From: Spirochaetota bacterium
GTDB taxonomy: Bacteria; Spirochaetota; Brachyspiria; Brachyspirales; JACRPF01
NCBI GenBank assembly: GCA_038043445.1
Contig: JBBTBY010000059.1
Location: 1 to 36,814, forward strand
Direction of reading: 5' to 3'
Length of the DNA stretch: 36,814 nucleotides
Below, one piece after another: positions 10,252 to 15,253 of the stretch; within the stretch, counting starts at the first letter, position 1; every line of letters starts with the position of its first letter. The position numbers and the translations under genes were made by a program. The notes below the pieces were generated by a model that searched no databases, had not been told where the DNA came from, and worked only from the letters and a program-made list of their open reading frames with translations.

Positions 10252-11112
10252 ATGATCATCAATCACAACATGAACGCGATCAATTCGAACCGCGTCCTCA
10301 AGTTCAAGCACTGGGACGTGAACAAAAGTGCGAACGCACTTTCGTCCGGTATGCGAATTAATCGCGCGGGTGATGACGCGTCGGGTCTTGCGGTGAGCGA
10401 AAAGCTCCGCTCGCAGATCCGCGGGCTCAATCAGGCTGTACGGAATACCGAGGACGGTATCTCGTTCATCCAGACGGCCGAAGGATACCTGCAGGAGTCG
10501 CAAGACGTATTGCAGCGCATCCGGGAACTCGCTATCCAGGGCTCCAACGGTATCTATACCGCTGAGGACCGGATGCAGATCCAGGTCGAAGTATCGCAGC
10601 TCGTCGACGAGATCGACCGCGTTGCTTCCCATGCACAGTTCAACGGTCTCAAAATGCTCACTGGCCGGTTCGCGAACCCGCTGCAGGGCGGTACGGCAAC
10701 AGCGTCGATGTGGTTCCACGTCGGCGCGAACATGGACGAGCGCAAACGCGTGTTCATCGGTACGATGACCGCGCGCGGCCTCGGCGTCATGTTCGCCAAC
10801 ACGAACTCGACCGTTTCCGTGAGCTCGCCCGAGAAAGCCAACCAGGCCATCGGTGTCGTGGATCAAGCGCTGACGAAGATCTCGAAACAGCGCGCTGATC
10901 TCGGCGCTTATCAGAACCGCCTCGAATACACCGCGAAGGGTGTGTCGGTCGCGGCTGAGAACATGCAGGCTTCCGAATCCCGCATCCGTGACGCGGATAT
11001 GGCATCCTACATGGTCGACTTTGCCAAGGATCAGATCCTTGTCCAAAGCGGCACGGCTATGCTCGCTCAGGCGAATCAGACCGGTCAAACGGTGCTTCAG
11101 CTGCTTCGCTAG
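10252..11112 (+). CDS. flaB: Flagellin FlaB, core filament protein
   Basis: The protein has 286 residues, typical for spirochaete FlaB. The conserved flagellin N-domain ([56 protein letters not shown]) and C-domain ([52 protein letters not shown]) flank a short middle with no large variable domain. There is no signal peptide, as expected for export through the flagellar type III system. It is the periplasmic-flagellum core on which FlaA forms a sheath. It has a strong Shine-Dalgarno (AAGGAGG) and is monocistronic, with a terminator 30 bases after the stop. Translation is probably CsrA-controlled. Confidence 0.96.
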
Positions 11113-11142
11113 TTGTACGAATCAGAAGATCCGACAAAAAAA

Positions 11143-11169
11143 GGACGGCGGTAACGCCGTCCTTTTTTT
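11143..11169. terminator. Bidirectional terminator between flaB and hypD
   Basis: A perfect 8-bp stem GGACGGCG/CGCCGTCC (11143-11150 with 11155-11162) has a GTAA loop. It is flanked by an A-run (11136-11142) on the left and seven T (11163-11169) on the right, so it works as a terminator for flaB on the plus strand and for hypD on the minus strand. Confidence 0.88.
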
Positions 11170-11191
11170 GTAAGCGGTGACCATACCCCGG

Positions 11192-12277
11192 TCACCGCTT
11201 ACCGTAGCGGAAAAAGATATTGCATGACCCTTCCGGGCTTACCATGCATGCGCCCTCGGGATGTTCCGGCGTGCATGCTTTTGCGTAGAGCGGGCAGTCG
11301 GACGGGACCTTTTTCGCGCGCAGCACATCGGCGCAGACGCAGGCAGGATTCTCCCGCGATGCCGTCGACACCGGCCCAAAACGCTTTTCTGCATCGAATC
11401 GTTCGTATTCCTGACGTATCCCGAGCGCGCTCTCTGGGAGCGTGCCGAGCCCGCGCCATTCGCCGTCGATGGGTGCGAATATTTTCTGTATCATCGCCTG
11501 TGCGGTGCGATTTCCTTCGCGGGTAACGGCGCGCGTATACTCTATTTCGACCGCGGCTTCACCGCGTTGTGCCTGGCGCACTATCATGAGGATAGAGCGG
11601 AGCATGTCGGCGGGTTCAAATCCGGATACGACGCAGATCTTTTTGTGTTCGCGTGCGACAGGTTCGTATATCTGCGCTCCCGTGATGACCGACACATGTC
11701 CGGGGCAGATGAAAGCATCGATGGGTATATCGCCGTCAGCGACGAGGGCGGCCATTGCCGGGGGCATGACGCGATGCGAGGGAAGTACGACGAGGTTGTC
11801 GATCTTTTTTTCGGCCGCTTCATCGATGAGCGCGGCGGTGAGCGGCGTCGTCGTCTCAAAGCCGATGGCGAGGAAGAGCACGGTGCGTTCGGGGTTCTCC
11901 TTTGCGATGACGAGCGCCTCCGCCGGCGAGTAGGAGACGCGTACATCGGCGCCCAGTTCCCGTTCGCGCATGAGCGTACTGACACTGCCCGGGAGCCGGA
12001 TGAGGTCGCCGAACGTTACGGTGATGACGCCGGGCCTTTGAGCATATTCGACAGCGCTGTCGATATACCGTATCGGTGTAACGCATACCGGACAGCCGGG
12101 GCCGGATACGAGCGTGATCGTCGGAGGGAGAATGTCCGCAAGGGCATAGCGTATTATCGTGTTCGTATGACCGCCGCATATCTCCATGATGGAGAGCGGC
12201 CGTTTCGATCCGGTGCGTATGGCGTCCGCAAGCGGGCGAATGATGGCACTCGTGCGGAACTCATCGATGTATCTCAT
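11192..12277 (-). CDS. hypD: [NiFe]-hydrogenase maturation protein HypD
   Basis: The protein has 361 residues, full length for HypD, the iron-sulfur scaffold on which the Fe(CN)2CO group is assembled with HypC. All usual blocks are present: IMEICGGHTNTI (about 30-41), SGPGCPVCVTP, GFETTTP, SHRVMPPAM, FICPGHVSVITG, VSGFEPADML and EGNRTAQ. The C-terminal cysteines that hold the cluster are also present (PACVCADVL, DCPLYAKACTPEHP, ACMVSPEGSC). No hypC, hypE, hypF or hydrogenase gene is in the window. It lies 20 bases behind tdh on the same strand and probably shares its transcript. The Shine-Dalgarno is weak. Confidence 0.93.
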   Translation of the reverse strand: MRYIDEFRTSAIIRPLADAIRTGSKRPLSIMEICGGHTNTIIRYALADILPPTITLVSGPGCPVCVTPIRYIDSAVEYAQRPGVITVTFGDLIRLPGSVSTLMRERELGADVRVSYSPAEALVIAKENPERTVLFLAIGFETTTPLTAALIDEAAEKKIDNLVVLPSHRVMPPAMAALVADGDIPIDAFICPGHVSVITGAQIYEPVAREHKKICVVSGFEPADMLRSILMIVRQAQRGEAAVEIEYTRAVTREGNRTAQAMIQKIFAPIDGEWRGLGTLPESALGIRQEYERFDAEKRFGPVSTASRENPACVCADVLRAKKVPSDCPLYAKACTPEHPEGACMVSPEGSCNIFFRYGKR

Positions 12278-12297: not shown

Positions 12298-13329
12298 TCA
12301 CGATATCGTCAATACTACCTTCCCGCATGCGCCGCTTTCCATCGCAGCGAACCCTTTCTCGAATTCATCGAAGGGATACCGATGCGTTATGACAGGCGAT
12401 ATATCGAGCCCGCTTAAGAGCATCTGTTCCATCTGATACCATGTCTCGAACATCTCGCGGCCGTATATCCCTTTCAGGAAAAGCCCCTTGAAGATGATCT
12501 TGTCCCAGGGTACCGTTGTCGTCTCGGGGAGTATGCCGAGGAGCGCTATCTTCCCGCCGTTGTACATATTCGCTATCATGTCATTGAACGCCGCGGGCGA
12601 CCCCGACATTTCAAGGCCGACGTCGAATCCTTTCGTTATACCGATCTCCTTCATGACATCGGTAAGTTTTGACGACCGCGGATCGACGGCCATGGTCGCG
12701 CCCATTTCTTCGGCAAGTTTCAGTCGATACTCGTTCACATCGGTCACGACGATGTTCCGCGCACCGGCGAATTTACAGACAGCGACCGCCATGCATCCGA
12801 TGAGCCCTGCTCCGGTAATGAGCACGTCTTCCGCGAGCACGGGGAATGAAAGCGCGGTATGTGTCGCGTTGCCGAACGGGTCCATGACGGCGACGATATC
12901 GTCAGCGATGTATTCGCTTATGCGGAGCACATTCCCTGCCGGCACCGCGATGTATTCGGCGAAGCAGCCGTCGCGATGCACGCCCACGCCGATGGTATTC
13001 TCGCAGATATGCTGTTTTCCGCGCCAGCAGTTGCGGCAATGCCCGCAGGCGATATGCCCTTCGGCGGTCACGCGCTCCCCGATACGGAAATTCTTCACGC
13101 CCTCGCCGAGCGCGGCTATTGTCCCGACATATTCGTGGCCGACTGTCATCGGCGTGCGTATCGTCTTCTGTGCCCACGCATCCCATTGATAGATGTGATG
13201 ATCGGTGCCGCAGATAGCGGCCTTCTTCACCTTGATGAGCACATCATTCACGCCGACGGCGGGAACGGGGACCTCTTCGAGCCAGAGACCGCGTTGCGGC
13301 TTCGATTTCACGAGCGCTTTCATCTTCAT
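12298..13329 (-). CDS. tdh: L-threonine 3-dehydrogenase
   Basis: The protein has 343 residues. It oxidises L-threonine to 2-amino-3-ketobutyrate with NAD+. Sequence along the whole length parallels the E. coli enzyme: [20 protein letters not shown] (catalytic zinc Cys), [26 protein letters not shown] (structural zinc cysteines), [40 protein letters not shown] (NAD site), [20 protein letters not shown] and [13 protein letters not shown]. Two ATGs (13329, 13323) are possible; GAGAGG upstream favours the first. Divergent from the XRE-cupin regulator and kbl, with which it forms the threonine-to-glycine pathway; hypD follows downstream. Confidence 0.95.
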
Positions 13330-13362: not shown

Positions 13363-13396
13363 TTGACAAAGAATGGCTTGTTCATTATATTGAACA
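13363..13396 (+). promoter_or_regulatory. Divergent tdh / regulator promoter with palindromic operator
   Basis: On the plus strand TTGACA (13363-13368), 17 bases, then TATATT (13386-13391) makes a near-consensus promoter for the regulator-kbl operon. On the minus strand a perfect TATAAT (13384-13389) could serve tdh, although its -35 is poor. A perfect inverted repeat TGTTCA-N6-TGAACA (13379-13396) covers both -10 elements. This is the natural place for the XRE-cupin protein to bind and repress both directions. Confidence 0.6.
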
Positions 13397-13453
13397 GCAT
13401 GTATAGTATAATGCACGCGGATGTTTTCGTCAAATACGTACAGGCGGTGCGCA

Positions 13454-14011
13454 ATGGGCGGTAAAGTCCCCGATATCGGAAGGAACATCGCGGCCATACG
13501 GAGCACGAAGAACCTTTCGCTTGACGACCTTTCGAAAAGAAGCGGCGTATCGAAATCGATGTTAAGCCAGATCGAGCAGAACAAGGTCAATCCCACCGTG
13601 GCCACTGTCTGGAAGATAGCACGGGCCATAAACGTATCCATCGAAAAGCTCATCGATGAGGGCGGGGAAAAGGTATTCGAGATAGTCACGAAGCGAGAGG
13701 CTGCCGAGATGTTCTCATCGGACAGGTCATGCCGCATAACGATACTCTCGCCGGTACATTACATCGATAAGACCGAGCTCTATTCCCTTGCGTTCAAGCC
13801 GAGAGGTAAACTTATCTCCGAACCGCATTTCCCCGGCACCGAGGAGATATTCAGCGCCATTGATGGATCGTTCATTGTGCGTACGCGCGAGACGACAGCG
13901 GAGGTCGCCGCGGGCGATACGGTACGCTATAAAGCCGACAGCCGTCATGAAATAATCAGCAAGAGCGCAAAACCATCGCGGGGGATATTGCTCGTGATGT
14001 TCCATGCGTAG
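13454..14011 (+). CDS. XRE-family regulator with cupin sensor domain
   Basis: The protein has 185 residues from MGGKVPDIG; an upstream ATG at 13421 would add 11 residues without a better ribosome-binding site. Residues of about 5-65 form a Cro/CI-type HTH (IGRNIAAIRSTKNLSLDDLSKRSGVSKSMLSQIEQNKVNPTV split over two helices, then WKIARAINVSIEKLI). Residues of about 105-180 form a small cupin barrel (SLAFKPRGKLISEPHFPGTEE, DGSFIVRT, AGDTVRYKADSRHEI). This architecture is common in regulators of amino-acid and amine catabolism. Its place between tdh and kbl suggests that it senses threonine or a pathway intermediate. The palindrome in its own promoter suggests autoregulation. Confidence 0.85.
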   Translation: MGGKVPDIGRNIAAIRSTKNLSLDDLSKRSGVSKSMLSQIEQNKVNPTVATVWKIARAINVSIEKLIDEGGEKVFEIVTKREAAEMFSSDRSCRITILSPVHYIDKTELYSLAFKPRGKLISEPHFPGTEEIFSAIDGSFIVRTRETTAEVAAGDTVRYKADSRHEIISKSAKPSRGILLVMFHA

Positions 14012-14086: not shown

Positions 14087-15253
14087 ATGAACGCACACGA
14101 CATTTTCTCCGCAACCGTGAACGACATCCGGAAGAACGGTCTTTTCAAGAACGAGCGCATTATCGTAAGCCGCCAGGGACGGACGATACGACTTGCCGAC
14201 GGCCGCGAGATGCTCAATTTCTGCGCGAACAATTATCTCGGCCTCGGCGGGAGCGACATGATCGCCGGTTTTGCCGCGGAGGGTTTGTCGCGCTATGGCT
14301 ACGGGATGAATTCCGTGCGTTTCATCTGCGGTACGCAGGACATTCACCGCGAACTTGAAGGACGTATCGCCGCGTTCTCAGGCTGCGAGGATGCAGTCCT
14401 CTACTCATCCGCATTCGATGCGAACGGAGGCCTCTTCGAGACGCTTCTCACTGCGGAAGACGCGGTGATAAGCGACGAGCTCAATCATGCGAGCATCATC
14501 GACGGGGTACGGCTCTGTAAAGCGGAGCGGAAAATATTCAAACACAGCGACCTGAGCGACCTTGATGCAGTACTGTCATCAGTGAAGGATAAGCGGATAA
14601 AGCTCATCGCTACCGACGGCGTGTTCAGCATGGACGGGCACATCGCCGATCTTGCCGGTATACGAAAAGTCGCCGACCGGCACGGCGCACTCCTCATGAT
14701 CGATGATTCGCATGCTGCGGGCGTTATCGGTATGCGCGGACGCGGAACACCGGAGCATTGCGGCGTGTTCGGCAGTGCCGATGTCATTACCGGTACCTTC
14801 GGTAAAGCGCTCGGCGGCGCCAGCGGCGGGTATACAGCGACGACGAAGACGATAGCCGATCTTCTGCGCAACCGCTCGCGGCCGTATCTTTTTTCCAACT
14901 CGCTTGCACCGCTCATCGCCTACGCCGAAAATGAAGTCCTAAAGCATCTGGAGAAGGATGATTCCGCAGTACGGACAGTGCAGGAAAATGCTCGGTATTT
15001 CCGCAGCGCACTCACTCGCGCGGGCATATCGATACTCCCCGGCGATCATCCCATAGTCCCGATAATGTTCGCCGATGAGACGCGTGCGCTTCTAACCGCC
15101 GAACGTATGCTTGCGGACGGCATCTATGTCATCGGCTTCTGCTATCCGGTGGTGCCGAAGGGCAAGGCGCGGATACGCGTACAGATAAGCGCGCTGCATA
15201 CGAAAGAGGATATGGACCGATGCGTGGCGGCATTTCAGCGCTCGATGGCCTGA
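14087..15253 (+). CDS. kbl: Glycine C-acetyltransferase (2-amino-3-ketobutyrate CoA ligase)
   Basis: The protein has 388 residues, starting MNAHDIFSATVNDI behind AGGAAA; an upstream GTG is discounted. It is a PLP enzyme of the alpha-oxoamine synthase family that splits 2-amino-3-ketobutyrate with CoA to glycine and acetyl-CoA. Match to Kbl is strong throughout: MLNFCANNYLGLGG, NSVRFICGTQDIHRELE, DAVLYSSAFDANGGLFETLL, SDELNHASIIDGVRLCKAER, DGVFSMDGHIADL, MIDDSHAAGVIG, and TGTFGKALGGASGGY with the PLP lysine at K240. It lies downstream of the XRE-cupin gene on the same strand and completes the Tdh pathway. Confidence 0.95.
   Translation: MNAHDIFSATVNDIRKNGLFKNERIIVSRQGRTIRLADGREMLNFCANNYLGLGGSDMIAGFAAEGLSRYGYGMNSVRFICGTQDIHRELEGRIAAFSGCEDAVLYSSAFDANGGLFETLLTAEDAVISDELNHASIIDGVRLCKAERKIFKHSDLSDLDAVLSSVKDKRIKLIATDGVFSMDGHIADLAGIRKVADRHGALLMIDDSHAAGVIGMRGRGTPEHCGVFGSADVITGTFGKALGGASGGYTATTKTIADLLRNRSRPYLFSNSLAPLIAYAENEVLKHLEKDDSAVRTVQENARYFRSALTRAGISILPGDHPIVPIMFADETRALLTAERMLADGIYVIGFCYPVVPKGKARIRVQISALHTKEDMDRCVAAFQRSMA

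Follow-up and report, generated by a model that had tools for sequence, protein, structure and literature searches.

In the parts of the published accounts available to us, the XRE-cupin proteins of Pseudomonas are described as local, specialized inhibitors with palindromic sites, and DbuR of Pseudomonas putida protects 44 bp that include a 20-bp palindrome and a predicted -10 element (PMC12724383, PMC7901475). As far as these parts of the sources extend, DbuR and the P. aeruginosa regulators PsdR, PauR and ErfA combine an XRE domain with a cupin domain, a gene beside the target pathway and a palindromic, promoter-proximal site, traits that they share with the locus analyzed here; they differ from it in pathway and in palindrome sequence, none of the four was seen controlling tdh or kbl, and the present locus has one site serving two predicted facing promoters. 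The E. coli bioA/bioBFCD control region likewise has divergent promoters that face each other and share a single palindromic operator; its regulator, BirA, is unrelated to the one considered here. Both enzymes and the pathway are those of E. coli kbl-tdh, which forms one operon under the global regulator Lrp, whereas our locus has split genes and a dedicated XRE-cupin protein. Local XRE-cupin repressors and single operators under two facing promoters are each already known; the threonine regulon is without a description that we could find in open-access papers. No XRE-cupin regulator of tdh or kbl was described in that literature, with which the survey was mainly concerned, and the names TdhR and KblR have unrelated meanings in the available parts of the literature.

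A candidate operator between tdh and an XRE-cupin gene

The window, the whole 36,814-nucleotide stretch of spirochaete DNA that was analyzed, contains the following features around the gap between tdh and the regulator gene:

12298-13329, minus strand: tdh, zinc-type (MDR) L-threonine 3-dehydrogenase (NF003808, 549 bits; TIGR00692, 488.5 bits, cut-off 458.35)
13363-13391, plus strand: predicted promoter of the XRE-cupin regulator and kbl, TTGACA-17-TATATT (11/12 of consensus)
13379-13396, no strand: palindrome TGTTCATTATATTGAACA, candidate operator (from the sequence; kept 5' of the same genes in relatives)
13400-13417, no strand: weak second pseudo-palindrome TGTATAGTATAATGCACG, holding the tdh -10 (4 mismatches, 21 bp from the first)
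13405-13433, minus strand: most likely tdh promoter, TTGACG-17-TATACT (10/12, predicted; its register recurs in relatives)
13421-14011, plus strand: XRE-cupin transcription regulator (HTH_3; ATG at 13454 the probable start, from relatives)
14087-15253, plus strand: kbl (NF005394, 558.7 bits; TIGR01822, 544.1 bits, cut-off 493)

Both tdh and kbl score above the curated NCBIfam cut-offs, which places them in the threonine dehydrogenase pathway. On the same strand as tdh and 20 bases downstream of it lies hypD for hydrogenase maturation (11192-12277, minus strand; TIGR00075 over its cut-off), and the region 10252-11170 holds an open reading frame that looks by eye like a flagellin, then a G+C-rich inverted repeat with a T run that resembles a terminator.

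The preliminary description of this DNA had proposed that a single TGTTCA-N6-TGAACA palindrome covers the -10 elements of both divergent promoters. The arms are present exactly at 13379-13396, with 8 of 9 base pairs symmetric. In the 5.1-Mb genome the arms pattern has two exact copies (none for a reversed-pattern control), and the fuller form, TGTTCANTATANTGAACA, occurs exactly once. With two mismatches allowed, TGTTCANTATANTGAACA has four more sites in its own genome, and 27 sites carry three mismatches. At the level of the two-mismatch sites, a wider regulon in this genome was rejected, all four of the other sites lying within open reading frames.

The rightward promoter, predicted to be strong, has its -35 element (TTGACA) at 13363-13368 and, after a 17-bp spacer, its -10 element (TATATT) at 13386-13391, entirely within the palindrome and at its centre, as had been claimed for the regulator-kbl side. 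The tdh side fared differently. The TATAAT within the palindrome (13389-13384, leftward) is preceded by a -35 sequence, ATTATA, that matches at only 3 of 6 positions (9/12 overall), and a better leftward promoter has TTGACG at 13433-13428, a 17-bp spacer and TATACT at 13410-13405, that is, a -10 element 8 bp outside the palindrome. The earlier claim for both -10 elements is therefore half right: with the tdh -10 element beyond its edge, the palindrome would cover the predicted tdh start and the first transcribed bases, not the -10 itself. The predicted starts of both promoters fall near the same base, at about 13398 on the edge of the palindrome, and the two promoters, in spite of the divergent genes, point at each other and overlap, so that one palindrome touches both of these predicted elements.

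The XRE-cupin protein

The N-terminal part of the regulator is an XRE/Cro-CI helix-turn-helix (HTH_3, 53.4 bits, cut-off 23), and its model matches the DNA-binding domain of SinR (Z 13.2 over 66 residues, rmsd 1.1). Cupin_2 scored 22.6 bits in the C-terminal part, under the cut-off of 27.2; a cupin sensor domain is nevertheless recognized by structure matches. The AlphaFold2 model (pLDDT 90.3, pTM 0.60) shows five helices followed by a barrel of strands, for which the nearest solved cupin is 1y9q (Z 15.3, 97 residues, rmsd 2.0; profile match E 5.9e-33), and 6b8w also aligns with the cupin domain (Z 14.8, 95 residues, rmsd 1.9). Judged from the sequence alone, the protein further has a palindromic site at the promoter of the adjoining pathway genes. 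Across 80 sequences the helix-turn-helix residues R16, L26, G31, S33, K34, M36, L37, S38, Q39, E41, N46, P47 and T48 are invariant, as are the cupin residues E108, Y110, S122, H125, E131, Y159, D162 and H165, the latter set being one that would fit a polar ligand or a metal.

No NCBIfam model names this regulator group above its cut-off. The two loci with split genes, the window and L033, group as sisters in the phylogenetic tree (support 99/91). A metagenome-assembled genome labelled Gaiellales (Actinomycetota) carries a regulator (L052) that falls inside a spirochaete clade, for which mis-binning or gene transfer are possible explanations. A plasmid origin of the regulator region was also considered, and blastn gave no plasmid match.

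Conservation of the site with the regulator and the threonine genes

The palindrome was followed through 81 loci, consisting of the window and the best 80 of 533 regulator relatives (L033-L112), drawn from a species-genome collection by a three-protein alignment scan; two contigs were seen twice (L004/L033 and L005/L055), and the counts use L033 and L055. KBL or TDH was encoded in the fetched flank of 70 of the 81 loci, so that a dedicated regulator is widespread among these relatives and not a local oddity. A site with at most three mismatches was present in 58 of these 70 threonine loci, which answers the earlier suggestion to look for the palindrome upstream of tdh or kbl in related genomes. 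In this tally, which allowed arms of TGTTCA or of TGTTCG (the second added after viewing Burkholderiales sites), the best site had 0 mismatches in 8 loci, 1 in 19, 2 in 19, 3 in 12, 4 in 10, 5 in 1 and 6 in 1, the last 12 loci thus having weak matches only. The 11 loci where neither KBL nor TDH was found had 2 mismatches in one case, 4 in one, 5 in two, 6 in four and 7 in three.

Using the single consensus TGTTCANTATANTGAACA and 320 bp at the regulator start, at most three mismatches were found in 51 of the 81 loci and at most four in 63. The 80 loci (best 80 of 533) together span 628,648 bp, and all 42 of their sites with at most two mismatches lay 5' of the regulator, tdh or kbl, regions that make up 7.9% of the bases. 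The window, L004, L005 and an initial set of matches had already been viewed when the consensus was fixed, so the counts of 51/81 and 42/42 are not fully blind. The consensus was fixed beforehand for a scan of 392 genomes of the phylum, in which the exact core had 14 sites in 13 genomes (2 for the reversed control). Six of the 14 lay between a regulator orthologue and TDH (the window, L132 and L125-L128) and eight did not, and the four hits other than those of the window and G040 may be closely related to loci that the set of the best 80 of 533 already includes.

Among 100 genomes of the phylum, the nearest relative of the regulator (L004, 53%) has tdh leftward and the regulator and kbl rightward, the same order as in the window. 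The preliminary description had held that loss of the palindrome from such a relative would count against it; the site is kept there (L004/L033) with 2 mismatches, as TGTTCAATATATTGAATT followed 21 bp on by TGTTTATTATAATAAACA, between two perfect-consensus facing promoters. The second nearest (L005, 41%) has kbl and tdh leftward and the regulator rightward, with CGTTCACTATAGTGAACA as its site. Across several bacterial phyla that are distant from one another, the predicted site is found beside this set of genes.

Gene order and promoter registers in relatives

In the 81 loci (the window and the best 80 of 533), the regulator in most cases reads away from a kbl-tdh operon that has stayed whole. 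The commonest layouts were KBL-TDH(SDR)-XRE (17), TDH(SDR)-KBL-XRE (16), KBL-TDH(zinc)-XRE (15) and XRE-KBL-TDH(zinc) (9), followed by smaller classes. In Spirochaetales, the gene that separates kbl from the regulator encodes an L-threonine 3-dehydrogenase of the SDR type (matches to the structures 7ol1, 3wmw and 2yy7 with E < 1e-90, the query being the L065 homologue). With SDR-type as well as zinc enzymes at these loci, the site accompanies dehydrogenases of two kinds that are unrelated to each other. Separation of tdh from the regulator and kbl was seen in only 2 of the 81 loci, both from sister lineages, the split being a single, uncommon rearrangement of a layout that is widespread. The arrangement had been presented as a different solution from that of E. 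coli; this stands for the gene split and fails for the dedicated regulator, which most of the same loci share.

Promoter positions were compared across the 50 divergent loci whose site has at most three mismatches, requiring at least 10/12 of consensus unless stated. The enzyme-side -10 element begins at -2 from the palindrome centre in 21 of the 50 (mean 2.0 and largest 6 in shuffled flanks), the regulator-side -10 begins at -20 to -24 in 17 (shuffled flanks 0.05, largest 2), and both registers occur jointly in 16, never in shuffles; since the loci are related the effective number is smaller, and Sphaerochaeta-type loci inflate these counts. The window is the mirror image, with its regulator side at -2 and its tdh side at -23, a geometry found in a minority of loci (4 of 50 at 9/12; shuffles 0.04, largest 1). 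Six of the 50 had no 9/12 promoter in either register.

A second, weaker match to the arms is enriched near +19 to +21 in the 50 loci. This peak hints at two dimers about 20 bp apart, although the -10 and -35 elements share its letters, and in the window TGTATAGTATAATGCACG at 13400-13417 is possibly a second dimer site.

Proposed mechanism and alternatives

That the palindrome acts as a conserved operator, tied specifically to this XRE-cupin regulator and to the threonine dehydrogenase and kbl genes, is strongly supported by the comparisons above, and it is very probably the predicted regulator site through which both halves of threonine breakdown are controlled. From the site, the genes, the promoter-like elements, their conservation and the specificity of the association, we infer binding, repression in preference to activation, and the nature of the ligand. 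The reading that we favor with considerable confidence is that the XRE-cupin protein would be a local, autoregulated repressor of the conversion of threonine to glycine and acetyl-CoA. Its dimer on the palindrome would overlie the regulator-kbl -10 element as well as the position where transcription from the facing tdh promoter begins. A single bound dimer could then shut both transcripts, and a threonine-pathway metabolite in the cupin pocket, most likely L-threonine or 2-amino-3-ketobutyrate, would release it. Taken separately, co-control of both halves via one operator appears very likely, and repression by the XRE-cupin protein likely. The two promoters would also exclude each other, since their starts nearly coincide. 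The earlier idea of one protein switching both halves is thus retained insofar as the site is conserved and placed for one dimer to hit both promoters, and revised insofar as both -10 elements are not overlapped.

Alternatively, the palindrome could be the regulator's operator and mainly activate tdh, or only autoregulate the regulator and kbl, the two halves then not being switched together. The position of the tdh -10 element outside the palindrome would agree with this, as would co-directional alphaproteobacterial loci (L077, L080, L087, L093 and L111) with two separate sites, one before the regulator and one before kbl. In the available part of its published account, NceR, a regulator of the XRE family, activates ompA, so family membership alone is no ground to exclude activation. 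Against this stands the location of the site over the tdh start region, which is typical of repression. Autoregulation alone is also insufficient to explain sites found upstream of dehydrogenase genes that have no adjoining regulator gene. In eight genomes where the regulator flank had neither KBL nor TDH, there were 22 sites with at most two mismatches under the consensus fixed in advance; 16 were fetched, of which two lay upstream of dehydrogenases and 14 did not. These two belong to G393 and G398, both with no KBL or TDH in the 4-kb regulator flank. The first (L140:882-899, Spirochaetales, 1 mismatch) precedes an SDR-type TDH gene, with the regulator (L101) about 5.5 kb away and other genes between; the second (L145:1501-1518, G398, 2 mismatches) precedes a zinc TDH gene, with the regulator (L048) on a different contig. 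L140 and L101 are apparently on one contig, so only G398 has site and regulator on separate contigs. With these points on both sides, we consider activation or mere autoregulation unlikely.

It is far less plausible that the palindrome is the operator of another regulator, by chance or through cross-control. An example of such a protein would be a PuuR-like XRE-cupin reading the same half-site: PuuR of E. coli (putrescine use) is itself an XRE-cupin, and the AAAATATAATGAACA boxes of the puu region, which we take to be PuuR boxes, share the 12-base half-site ATATAATGAACA with the minus strand of the window. The E. coli K-12 puu region examined (L163:3953-4139) contains AAAATATAATGAACA-like boxes with the half-site of the threonine palindrome, and the best match to the full palindrome in this stretch departs from it at 3 positions, which all fall in one arm. 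A common half-site may therefore be recognized by XRE-cupins of different pathways, with symmetry setting them apart. The window regulator itself is not PuuR, scoring 42.3 bits with NF007408 against an equivalog cut-off of 211, and the complete palindrome is associated with the present orthologue group and the threonine genes. No site with at most four mismatches was found at 24 XRE-cupin paralogue loci (of 27, L019, L030 and L031 being dropped when tblastn did not re-find them). A true tdh over its cut-off was present in 7 of 100 phylum relatives, among them G087, G068, G047 and G058, which have no regulator match; in these four and in G035, which is just under the cut-off and likewise has no regulator match, the site was absent upstream of the dehydrogenase gene, and the best matches at the loci had 5 (G087), 3 (G068, inside kbl), 4 (G047), 5 (G058) and 5 (G035) mismatches.

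Two further readings, that the palindrome is an RNA hairpin or attenuator or that it arose by chance in AT-rich promoter DNA, can be set aside almost entirely: a small stem is possible (-8.6 kcal/mol, z -1.74) but weak and not unusual, 12 of 200 shuffles folding equally well; a search for a terminator-like site found none; from its predicted start, the rightward transcript would not include the palindrome; conservation is specific to position and gene; and chance is ruled out by rarity in the genome, the paralogue control and the gene-specific placement of sites.

A proposed threonine-catabolism regulator across phyla

On balance, we lean towards regarding the repressor proposed above as a previously undescribed, cross-phylum regulator of threonine catabolism, formed by one XRE-cupin orthologue group with the operator code GTTCR-N-TATA-N-YGAAC. 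Its association with the pathway would have persisted through exchange of the dehydrogenase between two unrelated folds and through many changes of gene order. With an operator core that also serves as a -10 element, a single palindrome would in many loci set two facing promoters whose starts almost coincide. This might involve two dimers spaced by about 20 bp and a switch that lets either the regulator or the enzymes be made, but not both. An XRE-cupin group found in several phyla would thereby gain a testable function, a predicted binding site and a target pathway, and facing promoters with an operator core as -10 element would offer a compact natural case for studies of promoter interference.

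Since the site marks enzyme genes even where no regulator gene adjoins them, it can help to annotate threonine catabolism, including SDR-type dehydrogenases, for which the NCBIfam listing had no threonine dehydrogenase model. In the Bacillota genome that carries L145, the regulator orthologue (L048) lies by glycine cleavage genes (GcvPB over its cut-off, GcvPA by reading of the open reading frame), which hints that the breakdown of threonine is connected with that of glycine.
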